IMG/VR virus record: IMGVR_UViG_3300020121_000165 | Span: 1-42,713 of that record | Direction: 5' to 3' (one strand) | Source of the DNA: a virus | Length of the DNA: 42,713 nt | Shown here: positions 21,251-36,926 of the stretch, piece by piece | Layout of the letters: every line of letters starts with the position of its first letter | Numbering within the stretch: the stretch's first letter is position 1 | Notes under the pieces: model-generated | The model's database searches: none | Told to the model about the DNA's origin: nothing | The model's input: only the letters and a program-made list of their open reading frames with translations | Position numbers and translations under genes: made by a program

Positions 21251-22095
21251 TCGAGGAACCGCGTTGGCTCTGGCCTTTGATCCTCTTCGCGGCAGGGCTG
21301 GCCGCTCTGTGCATGATCGTCGCCTTGTCGCGTGCGGACGAGACGCTCACCTTCTCGCTCAAGGCTCCGTGCTTCAACGGCCTTCCATGCGACAGCATGA
21401 TGTGGGACTCGACTGGGCAGGGATACGTGCGTGCGGAGCCCACGGACTCCTTGAACGATTTGAAGGAGATCCGGATCTACGGGAGCCTCTTTGATGCTCC
21501 GGACACGGTGCTGCTGGGCTCATTCCCGGCGGTGCCGTGTTCGAGCTACACCTTTGCGCTCACGGTCGCGTCTGGGAAGATGGGCTTCATCATTCCTCGG
21601 GCCGTGGACAACTGGGGGAATGAGTCCTGCATCGGAGAGCAGTTTCTCTTTGCGACGAAGGCTCTGGACTTCCAGCTTGGTCTCCACGCGGCCTACTTCG
21701 ATAACGAGGATCTGACGAATCTCAGAGTGACGCGGATCGATCCAACGGTCGATTTCGACTGGGGCTTTTCCTCACCGGACACATCGATCGGGATTGACAC
21801 GTTCTCGGCCCAGTGGGACGGGTATGTCTTGCCCACGGTGTCGGGCGTCTACACCTTCTACTTCTTGTGGGAGGACGGTGGACGGGTCTGGGTGGGATCG
21901 ACCTACATCGTTAATGACTGGGGGATCAACAGCGAGCACGAGACCCACGGTCAATCCGTCACGCTATCGGCCGGTCTTCTTACTCCCATTCGGATCCAGT
22001 ACATGGCTCACAATGGGCACGCCAGTTGCCATCTCATGTGGGTGCCACCCGGTGGCGTCAAGACCGTCATCCCGGCCGCCAACCTCTTTCACTGA
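21247..22095 (+). CDS. PA14-domain protein with N-terminal signal anchor
   Basis: About 282 residues. After EEPRW comes an apolar segment (LWPLILFAAGLAALCMIVAL), a beta domain with four Cys, and from about residue 140 a PA14 domain: GLHAAYFDNEDL, QWDGYVLPTVSGVYTFYFLWEDGGRVWVG, then RIQYMAHNGHASCHLMWV. PA14 domains bind carbohydrate or the cell surface. The anchor suggests export to the host envelope, or it may be a virion-surface protein. No ATG or GTG lies at the natural N-terminus; CTG 21247 overlaps the upstream stop (CTGA), and TTG 21271 or ATG 21313 are alternatives. Confidence 0.7.
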   Translation: MIEEPRWLWPLILFAAGLAALCMIVALSRADETLTFSLKAPCFNGLPCDSMMWDSTGQGYVRAEPTDSLNDLKEIRIYGSLFDAPDTVLLGSFPAVPCSSYTFALTVASGKMGFIIPRAVDNWGNESCIGEQFLFATKALDFQLGLHAAYFDNEDLTNLRVTRIDPTVDFDWGFSSPDTSIGIDTFSAQWDGYVLPTVSGVYTFYFLWEDGGRVWVGSTYIVNDWGINSEHETHGQSVTLSAGLLTPIRIQYMAHNGHASCHLMWVPPGGVKTVIPAANLFH

Positions 22096-27523: not shown

Positions 27524-27556
27524 CCTTGATCCCCTTTCCCCAACCCATCACCTTAG

Positions 27557-27630
27557 AGGCGGCACCAGGATTTGAACCTGGGTAAACGGCTTTGCAGGCC
27601 GTCGCCTCATCCAGCCTCGGCCATACCGCC
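27557..27630 (-). tRNA. tRNA-Cys (GCA)
   Basis: 74 nt with a complete cloverleaf: acceptor GGCGGTA/TGCCGCC, D stem GCC/GGC, anticodon stem ACGGC/GCCGT with loop CTGCAAA (anticodon GCA), 4-nt variable loop and T arm CCAGG-TTCAAAT-CCTGG. The discriminator is U73, the known identity base for cysteine tRNA. CCA is not encoded. The 5' end touches the stop codon of the GT2-GNAT gene with no gap, so it is probably processed from the leftward transcript. Confidence 0.95.
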
Positions 27631-30399: not shown

Positions 30400-30751
30400 T
30401 CCCTGCCTCCTTGCTGGGAACCCCATGCTCTTCGAGTCGTGCGATCATCTGCTCCAGAGCTACCTGTACCCCCTCTCGATGCGCCTGCTGGAGAATAGCG
30501 AGCGGCGAGGAGCCCAGTTCGTGGTAGAACTGCTTAGACCTGACACGAGCCTCTATGCAATGGTCGTCCTGACTGAACGTACTCTTCAGTTCGCAGGAAC
30601 AACCGAACATAGAATGTAGCTTGATGAGGAGACAAGGTGACGGCCCCCCGTCGCTGCGATGCGCGTGAGGGTAGATCGACCAAGTGTTTGCGACGTCCCA
30701 GTTATTGAGGAGATGCTGCCGAAGTGCTCGCGCTGCTTCCAGGTTCGTCAT
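30302..30751 (-). CDS. Hypothetical protein, paralogue of the gene at 31830
   Basis: 149 residues. The N-terminus (AARALRQHLLNNWDVANTW) and the following strand pattern resemble AIVLRKRLLRYWATAGDW of the gene at 31830-32219, which suggests a duplication around the nuclease gene. GGAGG precedes ATG 30751. It overlaps both neighbours. The Gln/Gly-rich tail may be disordered. No known family. Confidence 0.58.
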   Translation of the reverse strand: MTNLEAARALRQHLLNNWDVANTWSIYPHAHRSDGGPSPCLLIKLHSMFGCSCELKSTFSQDDHCIEARVRSKQFYHELGSSPLAILQQAHREGVQVALEQMIARLEEHGVPSKEAGNGNQQQHGDRREFVGLFTTGPQEAEALVPEYV

Positions 30752-31619
30752 GGCCTGCCTCCATGAGAGTGGGGTAACGGTTCACCGCATGTTTGAAGAT
30801 GGTGTCGTCCGCGATGTCCTGTTCGCCGAGCTTTACGAAGAAGTACGGAGAGAACGTATTCCCGTAGATGCCAGAGTCGGACTTGCGATTCTGGATCGGC
30901 TTCACTTTTTCGTCAACGATTGCCTGCATCTGCTGGACGATCGCGCGAATATCCTGGATCGCGTCTACCTCGTCCTTCGGCATAAGCGGGATAAGCTGCT
31001 GCACGAAGGCAGCTTCTGGTTTCTTCTGGAAGGCCGTCCTACTGAGCTTGCGAAGCCCGTTGAGGTACGTCCCTCCGTAGGCATCCCGGGGATAGCTATC
31101 TTGAATGAGACGCGAGTACGCAAGCCCGTGGAGGTTCCGGCGCATGACCGTGACGTAGACCCCGATTGGAACGCGGTCCCCGATCGTCTTGTGCTGGAGA
31201 TCCCAGAGCTTCCCCTGGTAGCGCACGATCGTATCAGGACGGCCTATGAGTCGGTGCCCACCGCCGAGATTGAACGTGAGCGGCTCCTCGACCGCGAGCA
31301 CTTCGTCCGGGGGATAGTTCAGCTTCCAGTCGCCCGCCATGGAGTGGATCGCGTCCATCGTGTTCCGGTAATCGCGCGCCTCGGCGGGATAGCCATCAAG
31401 CTCCATCCCGATCTGACGCTCGATTACGGAATCGATGGATTCCACGATCGCGAGCGAGAGATCCTTCCCGCGAAAAACGGCTTCCATCAGTGCGTGGAAC
31501 GAAGTCCCTGCTTCCAAGGCGGCCAAGGGCCTACGTGGGACCCGTCCACGCACGTACTCATAATACCAATCTAGCTGGTCACGTTGGAAAGACTCCACGG
31601 CGCTAACCGATACGTCCAC
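30702..31619 (-). CDS. PD-(D/E)XK nuclease (RecB/Cas4-like)
   Basis: 305 residues. Motifs: GTSFHALMEAV at 38-48 (His42), LIGRPDTIV at 124-132 (Asp129), and LWDLQHKTIGD at 138-148 (Lys144), the GxxD...xHKT arrangement of PDDEXK_1 nucleases; Gln142 stands where Asp or Glu is usual, a known variation of the fold. Likely an exonuclease making single strands for the Sak4 system. The GTG start at 31619 has GGAGAAGGA upstream. A structured RNA with a terminator-like end lies 43 bases ahead, so its expression may be switched. Confidence 0.75.
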   Translation of the reverse strand: MDVSVSAVESFQRDQLDWYYEYVRGRVPRRPLAALEAGTSFHALMEAVFRGKDLSLAIVESIDSVIERQIGMELDGYPAEARDYRNTMDAIHSMAGDWKLNYPPDEVLAVEEPLTFNLGGGHRLIGRPDTIVRYQGKLWDLQHKTIGDRVPIGVYVTVMRRNLHGLAYSRLIQDSYPRDAYGGTYLNGLRKLSRTAFQKKPEAAFVQQLIPLMPKDEVDAIQDIRAIVQQMQAIVDEKVKPIQNRKSDSGIYGNTFSPYFFVKLGEQDIADDTIFKHAVNRYPTLMEAGHDEPGSSASTSAASPQ

Positions 31620-31661
31620 GAGTCCTTCTCCCTGTACGCGCGAACGATCAGCGCGCCGTGG

Positions 31662-31705
31662 AAAAACTGGCGCTCCCTAGCTGGTTACCCAGTTACCCCA
31701 GCGCC
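31662..31705 (-). terminator. Terminator-like hairpin competing with stem P5
   Basis: On the minus strand GGCGCU (31700-31705) pairs with AGCGCC (31669-31674) and is followed by AG then UUUUU (31662-31666). The AGC of the 3' arm is also used by P5 of the upstream RNA, so P5 and the terminator exclude each other. That is the layout of an attenuator in front of the nuclease gene. Confidence 0.5.
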
Positions 31706-31823
31706 GTTCTGAGCCTTTCAGCCCGATGTGCTGGACTAGGGAGCATATAACCCCACAGGAGGGGATCTCCGCTGCGAGAGGCGGTCCCAGCAAATGCCGG
31801 GTGTGATCCCATATCCTGTGGGG
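31667..31823 (-). ncRNA. Structured RNA with two three-way junctions (unknown class)
   Basis: Read on the minus strand. Domain 1: P1 is 10 bp (31814-31823 with 31751-31760), P2 6 bp GGGAUC/GAUCCC, enclosing hairpins CCCGGC-AUUU-GCUGGG and CCGC-loop-GCGG. Domain 2: P5 is 9 bp GCUCCCUAG/CUAGGGAGC (31736-31744 with 31672-31680), enclosing a CCAGC/GCUGG arm that carries GGGCU-GAAA-GGCUC, and CUGG-GUAA-CCAG. GNRA loops and G-U pairs exist only on this strand; the other strand would have A-C mismatches. It lies in the leader of the nuclease gene. It may be a riboswitch-like leader or a stable phage RNA. I do not recognise the class. Confidence 0.7.
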
Positions 31824-31829
31824 AGCAAG

Positions 31830-32219
31830 TCACCCCGCAGAATACCCGTCCCGAAGGAGTGAGCCATGGCCGACGCTGGTCGTCACCAGCCGAGTGATCC
31901 TGCGGGAAAGGAGACGCATAGAAAGCCGGATCCGAAGGCGCGTGCGACTCGCATGGCCCCGCTTCAGAGTGAAGATCTTACGATTCAGATAAGCGAGCGC
32001 CTGTTGCCGTGGCCTTGGTGTGAAACTCATCGCCCGGTATGCGTCAGAGGCAACTACGCGGTTCATGCCACGGTGAGAAGCGGCGAACACAATGAAACAA
32101 TCGTGTCCGTCACGATCCTCTAGCTCGTTCTTCCAGTCTCCTGCGGTCGCCCAGTATCTCAGCAGGCGTTTTCTCAGGACGATTGCCGTTCTCATATCGA
32201 TCTGTTTCTGCGTCGTCAC
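31830..32219 (-). CDS. Hypothetical protein, paralogue of the gene at 30302
   Basis: 129 residues. The first ~85 residues look folded (MRTAIVLRKRLLRYWATAGD, HDCFIVFAASHRGMNR); the rest is Arg/Leu-rich and may be a basic tail. The GTG start at 32219 has GGAGGGCAGG upstream. An opposite-strand reading (31866-32123) also has a start but less natural composition. It is followed by the structured RNA region. Confidence 0.52.
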   Translation of the reverse strand: MTTQKQIDMRTAIVLRKRLLRYWATAGDWKNELEDRDGHDCFIVFAASHRGMNRVVASDAYRAMSFTPRPRQQALAYLNRKIFTLKRGHASRTRLRIRLSMRLLSRRITRLVTTSVGHGSLLRDGYSAG

Positions 32220-32233
32220 CCTGCCCTCCGAGA

Positions 32234-32683
32234 TTAGTCGTCTGCCGTGGGATCGCCTGCTGAGCGTGAGTTACTCGTGTCGTCCGGATCGCCCTCCTTC
32301 ACATTGTCGCCGGTGTCGGGATCGAGAGCTTTCACGTGGATCGGTGTCCCGTCCGGGTCCCCATTGAGCGGTGCGCTCACGTACCCGCCGGTGTTGATCG
32401 CAGGGCCAGTGCAGCCCGTGCCGTCCGTATAGCAATGCCCCGGAGCCGGAGGACCGGCATACCCGAGGGGATAGTCGCAGTAGTACAGGATCTTGTAGCT
32501 CGCGGGATGGGCGGGATCGCGCACAACCCACGCGAGAGCCTTTGAGCCGTCGGGTAGCGTGACCGTGGCCAAAGTCTTGGGTGTGCCCATGATCGCCTCG
32601 CTACGGGGCTCAGGCGCGGTCACAGGGGCTTTGGAGCAGCCAGCGAGACCGAGAATCGCGAGAAACGCTAGTGTCCGGTTCAT
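32234..32683 (-). CDS. Lipoprotein
   Basis: 149 residues. The signal MNRTLAFLAILGLAGC ends in lipobox LAGC with Cys16 as the lipid site; the mature part is Pro/Gly/Asp-rich with four Cys in YYCDYPLG...HCYTDGTGC and a disordered acidic tail. ATG overlaps the upstream stop (ATGA). Phage lipoproteins often block superinfection by masking receptors; an Rz1-like role is less likely because no Rz partner overlaps it. Confidence 0.78.
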   Translation of the reverse strand: MNRTLAFLAILGLAGCSKAPVTAPEPRSEAIMGTPKTLATVTLPDGSKALAWVVRDPAHPASYKILYYCDYPLGYAGPPAPGHCYTDGTGCTGPAINTGGYVSAPLNGDPDGTPIHVKALDPDTGDNVKEGDPDDTSNSRSAGDPTADD

Positions 32684-33105
32684 CGGGGACCTCCCTTGCC
32701 ATGTTTCGCTAGAATGTTCGCTTCACGCTTGATTGCAGGACTTACGATCCAATGCCCGCGTACCTCTCTGGGGATCCCATTCCAGATTCGGGTGTGAGTC
32801 TTCACCCAGTAGTGATTCGCACTGGGGCGCTTGGTTTCATCGAAGACATCCTCCCTTCTGGGGCGACCACGCTTGCGTTTCATGGGACCGAAGCGATCGA
32901 TTGCATCCGTCGTGATAACAATAGCTTCCGACTTGTGGCCGTTACCACCGTGCATCTCCATGTCCGATGGGCCTTCGCCCGCCGTGATCGGATCCTCCCC
33001 GAAGATCATGGCCAGAATCTTGACAGCTATAGCCACGTCCTCTTTCGGGAGAGGCTTCAAGTTCTCGATCACGTCGGCAAGCGCTTGGAGCTTATCAGTT
33101 TGCAT
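32680..33105 (-). CDS. Putative DNA-binding protein with AT-hook-like motif
   Basis: 141 residues. A helical N-terminus (TDKLQALADVIENLKPLP), a basic KRKRGRPRRED motif at about 77-87 like an AT hook, and a C-terminal domain with NHYWVKTHTRIWNGIPREVRG. ATG 33105 has AAGGAG eight bases upstream; longer readings lack one. A regulator of the leftward unit is possible. Confidence 0.58.
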   Translation of the reverse strand: MQTDKLQALADVIENLKPLPKEDVAIAVKILAMIFGEDPITAGEGPSDMEMHGGNGHKSEAIVITTDAIDRFGPMKRKRGRPRREDVFDETKRPSANHYWVKTHTRIWNGIPREVRGHWIVSPAIKREANILAKHGKGGPR

Positions 33106-34246: not shown

Positions 34247-34678
34247 CTAGGCGTTATCGCCCTTGAAACGCTGAACCTGCCAATCCGTGCGCTGGGGTTC
34301 CCACTTGTCGTCCTTGATCTGTCGGGCCGCCATAGCGATGGCACTCGACCGACCATTGGCCACGACATCGACCTTGATGATCTGTCGAGCCACCTTGCCG
34401 CCCTGGGACTCCAGCAACGTCGGCCGCTCAATCGCAACGACCGTGTAGACGCTGGCCCTAGTCTCCTCGCACATGGTGTTCTCTCCTTCTGCGCGCTGTG
34501 CGCGCGGGTTCGGTGCCGGACTATCCGGCACCATTTCTTCCCACCACAAAGCCTCAAATACCTGCCCACAGACCGGACACTCGGAGTCGCACGCGCAATC
34601 CCATTCGTCTTCCCATTCCACGTCACATTCCGGGCACTCGTAGAAGATTCGATACCAAGGTGGTGGCTTGCGAATCAT
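34247..34678 (-). CDS. Zinc-ribbon protein
   Basis: 143 residues. CPEC at 15-18 and CPVC at 34-37, with CAC between, form a zinc ribbon in an acidic/Trp-rich setting. The second half (VVAIERPTLLESQGGKVARQ to KDDKWEPQRTDWQVQRF) looks like a separate small domain. ATG 34678 overlaps the amidotransferase stop (ATGA), so the two are co-translated. It may be an accessory of the amidoligase system. Confidence 0.65.
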   Translation of the reverse strand: MIRKPPPWYRIFYECPECDVEWEDEWDCACDSECPVCGQVFEALWWEEMVPDSPAPNPRAQRAEGENTMCEETRASVYTVVAIERPTLLESQGGKVARQIIKVDVVANGRSSAIAMAARQIKDDKWEPQRTDWQVQRFKGDNA

Positions 34679-35664
34679 TCCGGATACCCTTCCTTCTCCA
34701 TTTCCTGGACGAGCCCGTCTACGATCTTCTGCGCCTCAGACGGGCCATTGGATGCCGCCGGGAGCGTTGGCGATTCGTTGCACTTGTGGCCGTTCCCGTT
34801 CACAGGCGGCACGTCCTTATCCCGGTCGGGCCAATCCCGAGAGTCGTATCCGCTCTCGTAGACCTTGATTCCCTGCTGCCCGAGCCCGTAGCCATATCCC
34901 CGATGCTTGGAGTAATCCTCCACCTTGGTGCTCTTTCCCTTGGTCGCGTATTCGGCCAGTGCAGGCCCGTAAGCCTTCTCGTGGTAGACGCCCGTCGCTG
35001 ACACCTTGCAGAGCGCCCGATGCGGCACCGATTCCGCCTTCGTTCCTAGCTGGATGTAGGCAATGGAGCGCACGGCGGCAAGTAACTGCTCCTCGGTCGA
35101 CGCGAACACGGTGAACGTATTCCCGGCTCCCGTGATGGTGCAGTATTCGAGCGGATTCCCGTCCCGAATGAGATACATGCGCTTCCCGTACACGAACGCG
35201 AGCGCCGTAGAACCGAAGGCTTGCCACATGAAGCGGGTCATCGCCTTTGGGCCATACTTCTCCACGAATGAATGTGCCAGTTCCGAATCGACCCCGGACG
35301 GATTCAGCAGTTCAAAATCCGTGCGTAGCTTGTAATGATTCGTGAAGACGCCATTGTGAACGAGTACGGCTTTCTCGCCGTGAAACGGTTGCGCTCCATC
35401 GTCCAATCGACTCCCGCACGTCGGCTGTCGTGTATGCACGAGCGCCATCGTCGCGGGCTTGGCGACTTGATGGAACGATGCGTCTTGAATGAAGGCAATC
35501 GGCTCCATCGCCCGCTTGTAGACGTATCCGCCGGGGCCTTCGGCATTCGTCCAGATACCGGACGATTGCTTTCCTCGGGGCTGGCCGTAGTACAAGAGCG
35601 CGGCACACAATTCCGCCGTGTGCGGAAGAGGCTTTTGCGAGATAAATCCTGCGATGGAACACAT
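34675..35664 (-). CDS. Class II glutamine amidotransferase
   Basis: 329 residues. Cys2 in MCSIAGF is the N-terminal nucleophile of class II amidotransferases after Met removal. HTRQPT at 77-82, HNGVF at 103-107 and DSELA at 126-130 are the glutamine-binding and oxyanion motifs as in GlmS/PurF. The domain fills about residues 1-210; the rest is a charged, probably flexible tail. No synthase domain is attached, so ammonia from glutamine must be used by a partner. The partner is most likely the amidoligase just upstream, whose stop overlaps this start (TAATG). Confidence 0.85.
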   Translation of the reverse strand: MCSIAGFISQKPLPHTAELCAALLYYGQPRGKQSSGIWTNAEGPGGYVYKRAMEPIAFIQDASFHQVAKPATMALVHTRQPTCGSRLDDGAQPFHGEKAVLVHNGVFTNHYKLRTDFELLNPSGVDSELAHSFVEKYGPKAMTRFMWQAFGSTALAFVYGKRMYLIRDGNPLEYCTITGAGNTFTVFASTEEQLLAAVRSIAYIQLGTKAESVPHRALCKVSATGVYHEKAYGPALAEYATKGKSTKVEDYSKHRGYGYGLGQQGIKVYESGYDSRDWPDRDKDVPPVNGNGHKCNESPTLPAASNGPSEAQKIVDGLVQEMEKEGYPE

Positions 35665-36926
35665 TAGCTAGTTCCCCCGGTGCGACGATTGTCATGGAGC
35701 CATTGAAGCGGTGGTTCCGGACGGTCTGCTTCCAGGTTCGCCTGTTCTACCATCGCCTGCCGAATCCGTGGTGGTGGTGTGTCCTTGGCGAAATTGAAAT
35801 GCGCAAATTCTCGCGCTCGCTTCACGAGATAGCGCCGCAGATAGAGCGGCATGCGCAGCATTTGGAACAGTTCCACCAAGCGGGGGCGAGCGTAGTAGTT
35901 CCGCTTCGGCGGGGCTGGCGCATCCTGCCAAGCCTGGAAGGCGTACAAGAGAAAAAGCATCCAATTCCGGACCTTCTCCGGATTCAAGGTGCCGGGATGA
36001 AGTCTTACTTCGTACGTTTCCCACTTGCTCAAGGCCGCTACGTTCAGTGCGTAGTAGCGGTTGTCTTGTGGGATTTGACTGCGCGGCATGCAGAAGCGAT
36101 TCCCGTGACGGGAGACGGGAACAAACGAGAAGATCGTTTGCTCGAAGTAGCCCCACCACTTTAGGATAGCATCGCGCTGCGCGCTGGACATTACGCTCAT
36201 GTCCAAATGCACGTGGAAACCGCACGATGCGTTCACAAAGCCGTGATGCCGCCGGAATAGCAAGCAGACATCACGCACTAGTTCTAACGCCCGATCACCA
36301 CGCGCAGCATGCGATGCATATTCGTAGGCTTTGCCGCGCTGGGAGTGTTCGTTCTTGACAGAAGCGTCATGCTTCAAGACACCGTAAGGCGACATATCCA
36401 AATGCGTCGGCAGGCCGCCTGGAACGAGAAATTCCAGTTCAAAGCCGATCTTCCGTAGGAATGGATTCCGCGTGTATGTTGTGTCGTCGAGTACAATCGG
36501 AAGGCGAGAACGGCACCCACCACAAAGCGGTAATGGTCCTTCTCGGTCATGGCCACGCGGCAGTATTATCCGGACTTCACACCGGCGGCACCTGGTCATG
36601 TTGGCATTGCAGGCATCGCACCACCCACCATTCGCGTAGAAGATTTCGGAATGGATCAATGACCCACAATCGCCGCACGTTTTCATGTAGCGAGGCTTGC
36701 AAGCGGTACAAGCCCACAACTTCGCTTGGGGATCGCTGGCGAGCGTCCTGGGACCGGTGACATCATGCAGACTGCGCCGTAGGAAGGCTTGGTGGCAGCC
36801 ATGGCACGCCAAGAACGCAAGACGAAAATGCTCGAAGCAGTACCGCTTGCGGGAGCGCGGATTCTGCCAGTATGGCTCGCGTTCACATCGCGGCTTGATG
36901 CAACGAAACGTGGGATCGTTCGGCAT
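35664..36926 (-). CDS. Amidoligase (ATP-grasp-like COOH-NH2 ligase) with N-terminal zinc modules
   Basis: 420 residues. Residues 1-140 carry repeated CxxC pairs (41/44, 73/76, 84/87, 103/106, 113/116, 135/138), an array of zinc ribbons. Residues ~155-345 match the Amidoligase_2 family: IGFELEFLVPGG at 160-171, Asp187, AYEYASH at 200-206, GFHVHLDMS at 236-244, YFEQTIFSF at 260-268 and ETYEVRLHPGTLN. The family joins a carboxylate to an amine using ATP. The paired amidotransferase next door supplies ammonia. AGGAG precedes ATG 36926. The substrate may be a protein, peptide or cell-wall component. Confidence 0.83.
   Translation of the reverse strand: MPNDPTFRCIKPRCEREPYWQNPRSRKRYCFEHFRLAFLACHGCHQAFLRRSLHDVTGPRTLASDPQAKLWACTACKPRYMKTCGDCGSLIHSEIFYANGGWCDACNANMTRCRRCEVRIILPRGHDREGPLPLCGGCRSRLPIVLDDTTYTRNPFLRKIGFELEFLVPGGLPTHLDMSPYGVLKHDASVKNEHSQRGKAYEYASHAARGDRALELVRDVCLLFRRHHGFVNASCGFHVHLDMSVMSSAQRDAILKWWGYFEQTIFSFVPVSRHGNRFCMPRSQIPQDNRYYALNVAALSKWETYEVRLHPGTLNPEKVRNWMLFLLYAFQAWQDAPAPPKRNYYARPRLVELFQMLRMPLYLRRYLVKRAREFAHFNFAKDTPPPRIRQAMVEQANLEADRPEPPLQWLHDNRRTGGTS

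Follow-up and report, generated by a model that had tools for sequence, protein, structure and literature searches.

What does a row of strongly folded RNA units do between two genes of a phage operon? The window analysed in this study is a whole virus contig of 42,713 bases, which carries portal, major head, tail and terminase genes. It belongs to a tailed phage, and the folded array sits in a leftward operon just before an exonuclease gene. The initial annotation had read positions 31667-31823 as an unrecognised RNA with two three-way junctions. We found that this RNA is indeed structured, leftward and outside Rfam, but that it has four units, of which the best supported is a hairpin on the start codon of the exonuclease gene. 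Because of this hairpin, we favoured an mRNA leader over a separate RNA. With a probability of about one half, we believe that the array is a cis-acting structured intercistronic leader, which would uncouple the exonuclease from the upstream gene and keep the exonuclease start repressed unless the hairpin is cleaved or bypassed.

A repeat search around 31667-31823 found two more arm pairs with the same size and spacing. The array covers 313 bases, running leftward from 31906 to 31594, and is composed of four units arranged head to tail. Three of them measure 73 nt and the fourth 69 nt; a stem of 9-10 bp closes every unit, and 6 to 10 bases separate one unit from the next. The two units described before are real, but the proposed extent was too narrow, as one more unit flanks them on each side. 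The features are listed in Table 1.

Table 1. Features of the array and of the adjoining genes (positions in the window; units numbered from the exonuclease side).
Feature	Position	Strand	Description
PD-(D/E)XK exonuclease gene	30702..31619	-	Pfam PF12705, E 2.6e-11; PHROG exonuclease, E 1e-14
U1	31594..31662	-	69 nt, near-continuous hairpin (10+6+8 bp); perfect 10-bp pair 31594-31603/31653-31662
GTG start codon of exonuclease	31617..31619	-	inside U1 stem
Shine-Dalgarno region AGGGAGAAGG	31624..31633	-	U1 apical loop; mean unpaired probability 0.91
U2	31672..31744	-	73 nt, three-way junction, one GUAA loop; perfect 9-bp outer stem, arms 31672-31680/31736-31744; fold -36.9
U3	31751..31823	-	73 nt; perfect 10-bp outer stem, arms 31751-31760/31814-31823; fold -44.7
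U4	31834..31906	-	73 nt, multi-branched; 10-bp stem with one G-U, arms 31834-31843/31897-31906, inverted repeat 90%
Apparent insert	31620..31934	-	conserved part of upstream ORF to exonuclease start; G007 comparison, codon scores
Upstream ORF	31830..32219	-	residues 9-95 homologous to the ORF preceding the exonuclease in G007, tail not; tblastn E 3.3e-7

The perfect outer stems of 10 and 9 bp claimed for U3 and U2 were exact in both arms. The 9-bp stem of U2 closes a three-way junction, as had been proposed, but in U3 the outer stem is followed by an internal loop, and it is an inner stem of 6 bp that closes the junction. Two GNRA loops had also been reported. The GUAA loop (CUGG-GUAA-CCAG) is present in the minimum-energy fold, whereas the supposed GAAA loop is not, since that hairpin pairs CUGA with UCAG around AAGGC. 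The folding energy was -36.6 leftward versus -26.0 rightward for U4, and -39.9 leftward versus -27.6 rightward for U1. The surroundings, described as non-coding, are so from 31620 to 31829, between the two ORFs, but the outermost units reach into them: U1 spans the start of the exonuclease gene, and U4 overlaps the final codons of the upstream ORF. An ORF of 46 aa at 31693-31833 was rejected as coding, since its codon score falls short of the 5th percentile for coding segments and Pfam gave no match.

The sequences of U1-U4 are not significantly alike (lowest p among the 6 pairs, 0.07). A duplication of one unit, with an apparent compensatory change between the outer stems of U3 and U4, was considered and rejected on this ground, and for the same reason the change was not counted as covariation. 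At 31490-31553, within the exonuclease coding sequence, there is a perfect inverted repeat of 9 bases with a similar unit length, which may be a fifth unit or chance. At 31660-31705, a hairpin pairing AACUGG with CCAGUU and running into UUU would exclude the outer stem of U2. It resembles an attenuator but is less stable, and it forms only when the 5' arm of U2 is lacking (-28.8 for the shortened stretch versus -38.6 for the full one). No intrinsic terminator was called at the array.

The array folds far better than expected from its composition. The full array reached -165.3 kcal/mol leftward, with none of 100 shuffles as low (z -7.20), compared with -135.3 rightward (z -4.32). The stretch 31667-31823 reached -83.7 kcal/mol leftward, a value that no dinucleotide shuffle out of 200 attained (z -5.73), compared with z -4.53 rightward, in agreement with the earlier claim that the structure is specific to the leftward transcript. 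Among 2828 windows of 310 nt on both strands, the array was the most structured, and in a scan by 76-nt windows it formed the top cluster, with four successive bins. We then counted non-overlapping units with perfect 9-base arms, requiring three in 330 bases. No Markov-simulated contig out of 200 reached at least three (the maximum was 1 in 180 contigs and 2 in 20), and neither did any of the 59 relative loci fetched, among which there is some overlap; the window's own count of three starts at 31490 and includes the arm pair at 31490-31553 in the exonuclease gene, which is perhaps chance.

The comparison with relatives shows how the two flanking genes are arranged elsewhere. The position of the exonuclease gene start is consistent with its homologues. 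In all nine relative loci compared (11 were found), a forward ORF either runs across the exonuclease start or stops no more than 24 nt away, and no similar array precedes the exonuclease in the nine relatives examined. In the relative G007, homology to the upstream ORF stops some 15 bases short of the exonuclease start, whereas 315 bases intervene in the window. Because the flanking genes abut in G007, the array appears to have been inserted in this lineage. The suggestion comes from this one relative, which keeps both flanking genes, since the upstream ORF had no match in G004, G023 or G024. The upstream ORF had no family match either, at the curated level or at 0.01. G007 has a hairpin-rich noncoding stretch of its own at about 21660-22081 (L032:1661-2082), followed by a TTGACA promoter-like sequence; it lies elsewhere in a same-direction operon and is the top structured cluster of that contig.

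Of the four units, U1 is the best supported. In the prediction, the start codon is paired in a hairpin of -40.7 kcal/mol (positions -43 to +27), with a mean unpaired probability of 0.00. No other gene start among the 42 tested had so low a minimum free energy; the second lowest was -28.5, a gap of 12 kcal/mol, and the same region in nine relatives gave -14.1 to -23.0. In two relatives whose hairpins are weaker, the start codon was likewise predicted to be largely paired (unpaired 0.07 in L041 and 0.01 in L044). When codons 2-9 were recoded synonymously, only 32 of 36,864 versions folded equally well or better (0.2% weighted by codon use). In the control with 42 gene starts, the exonuclease had the smallest synonymous fraction (0.0007), and the second gene had 0.047. 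This test was devised after the U1 hairpin had been seen, and it shows only that the leader and the codons match; had the leader arisen through inverted copying of the coding strand, the match would be there even if nothing had selected for it.

Computation gave the fold, the preference for one strand and the unusually good match of the exonuclease codons with the leader; for repression and how it is lifted, and for what U2-U4 do, we infer the following course. The insert of about 315 bases would part the upstream ORF from the exonuclease gene and break translational coupling. U1 would bury the exonuclease start in a long stem, with the Shine-Dalgarno in the loop, where a fully closed operator would not leave it exposed, and low translation would be expected from a read-through transcript because this stem holds the start codon. 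Release could come from cleavage of the stem (e.g., by RNase III), from a transcript beginning inside U1 or from a bound protein. Without the 5' arm of U1, the model released the start incompletely (0.30-0.34 unpaired) and made the Shine-Dalgarno less accessible (0.31-0.43). U4-U2 would most likely form a barrier by which the two halves of the mRNA are kept apart, protected or processed.

The most serious rival, which we consider unlikely, is an mRNA processing or stability element. On this view RNase III cuts the tandem stems, or the stems stop 3' exonucleases, and the operon yields two separate messages, as happens with T7 early mRNA; burial of the start would be a side effect. The array does lie between two same-strand genes, and U1 forms one nearly unbroken helix (24 pairs, with a few more at the apex). 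However, simple processing does not need the codon fit of U1, and an array of this kind is missing before the exonuclease of the nine relatives examined. The view of the initial annotation, a free-standing structured noncoding RNA that is transcribed separately or released from the mRNA and acts in trans, seems improbable to us. The strong multi-branched fold, the insert-like location and the short U run after U2 would suit it, but 31000-33000 held no sigma-70-like promoter (the scan does not cover phage-specific promoters), a terminator was not called there either, U1 and U4 overlap the adjoining ORFs, and a homologue was not found in any collection searched.

The array may also act as DNA, as a REP-like or MITE-like cluster of palindromes or a protein-binding site. 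Its insert-like nature, inverted repeats of constant size and the hairpin-rich stretch of G007 speak for this, but the leftward fold is about 30 kcal/mol better than the rightward one and departs further from its shuffles, the units have no significant likeness in sequence, and the array is a single copy in the contig, without the multiple copies of repeat or mobile elements (REP, MITE) and without copies in the collections searched, and we hold this reading to be somewhat less probable again. Least probable of all is a functionless product of chance or mutation, for example, inverted copies made by template switching. Conservation was not found and the units are unrelated in sequence, as such an origin would allow, but several units of the same size stand in a row, and three perfect-arm units were never reached in the simulations.

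With the covariance models of Rfam 15, nothing except a tRNA-Cys scored above the gathering cut-off in the whole window, and the best sub-threshold match in 31600-31900 had E 7, so a known Rfam RNA was rejected; the initial annotation had likewise seen no match to a known riboswitch or ribozyme. A tRNA-like reading of the 73-nt units was likewise rejected, as ARAGORN and Rfam detected only the tRNA at 27556-27630. Searches of phage and plasmid DNA by blastn gave short matches at E 0.9-1 or none; a single 22-nt match was found in G004 (E 0.06), away from the exonuclease. In pattern scans, two array patterns had no match in viral_contigs, and one pattern had none in genome_contigs. Protein scans of close relatives yielded no array homologue. 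A covariance model of U2 and U3, built from one sequence entered twice, was run against 53 sources (648,558 bases) and found itself at 192 bits, all else being incomplete matches at noise level (14.1 bits with E 0.8 and 9.7 bits with E 8.4); against 11 records it gave one match, at E 1.3. The literature searched gave no description of such an array, which is a weak negative, since subscription papers lie mostly outside its coverage.

Several known systems resemble the array in part. Riboswitch and attenuator leaders have a branched domain with a closing outer stem. The units here have the same plan, and the 3' part of U2 can form the competing hairpin beside a U run, but they differ from riboswitches and attenuators in having no Rfam match, no known conserved core and no homologues found. 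In T7, each RNase III site consists of one hairpin about 60 nt long, whereas here four units stand in a row, three of them branched. The sites in T7 early mRNA are stable intergenic hairpins in a polycistronic phage message (PMC4858673), and by this analogy U2-U4 may be processing or stability elements.

The leader reading finds its nearest parallel in phage T4. Its genes e, soc, 49 and I-TevI are kept silent on long transcripts by inhibitory leader hairpins, in which the Shine-Dalgarno and/or the start codon is held in a helix of the longer read-through transcript (PMC3014915). Unlike these leaders, U1 is predicted to bury only the start and to leave the Shine-Dalgarno in the loop, no late promoter was identified in its 5' arm, and three more stem-closed units precede it. 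The exposed Shine-Dalgarno, the failure of the sigma-70-like scan to find an internal promoter, and the model without the 5' arm, in which the start is partly released and the Shine-Dalgarno becomes covered, count against simple membership in the T4 type. A new kind of leader could be imagined instead: a row of sequence-unrelated, stem-closed RNA domains of about 73 nt, taken up together between two genes that a relative keeps coupled, and acting jointly as a sensor or insulator, the last of which shows the Shine-Dalgarno in a loop and gates the start of a recombination exonuclease. We regard this as doubtful, a little more so than the processing element and less so than a free-standing RNA. 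If the leader reading is true, the array is a compact insert that controls a phage recombination nuclease by uncoupling the gene from its operon and gating the start codon. It would also be a warning that a structured leader of a phage may be confined to one lineage, where scans that require conservation miss it.

Some other features of the contig were also observed. On the opposite strand, 31866-32123 (+) holds an ORF of 85 aa with a good Shine-Dalgarno, which overlaps the upstream ORF and U4 and has no family match. At 34675-36926 (-), a glutamine-amidotransferase-like gene adjoins an amidoligase-like gene, and the pair is also adjacent in G004 and G007. The tRNA-Cys(gca) gene at 27556-27630 (-) stands alone beside a GNAT-like gene.
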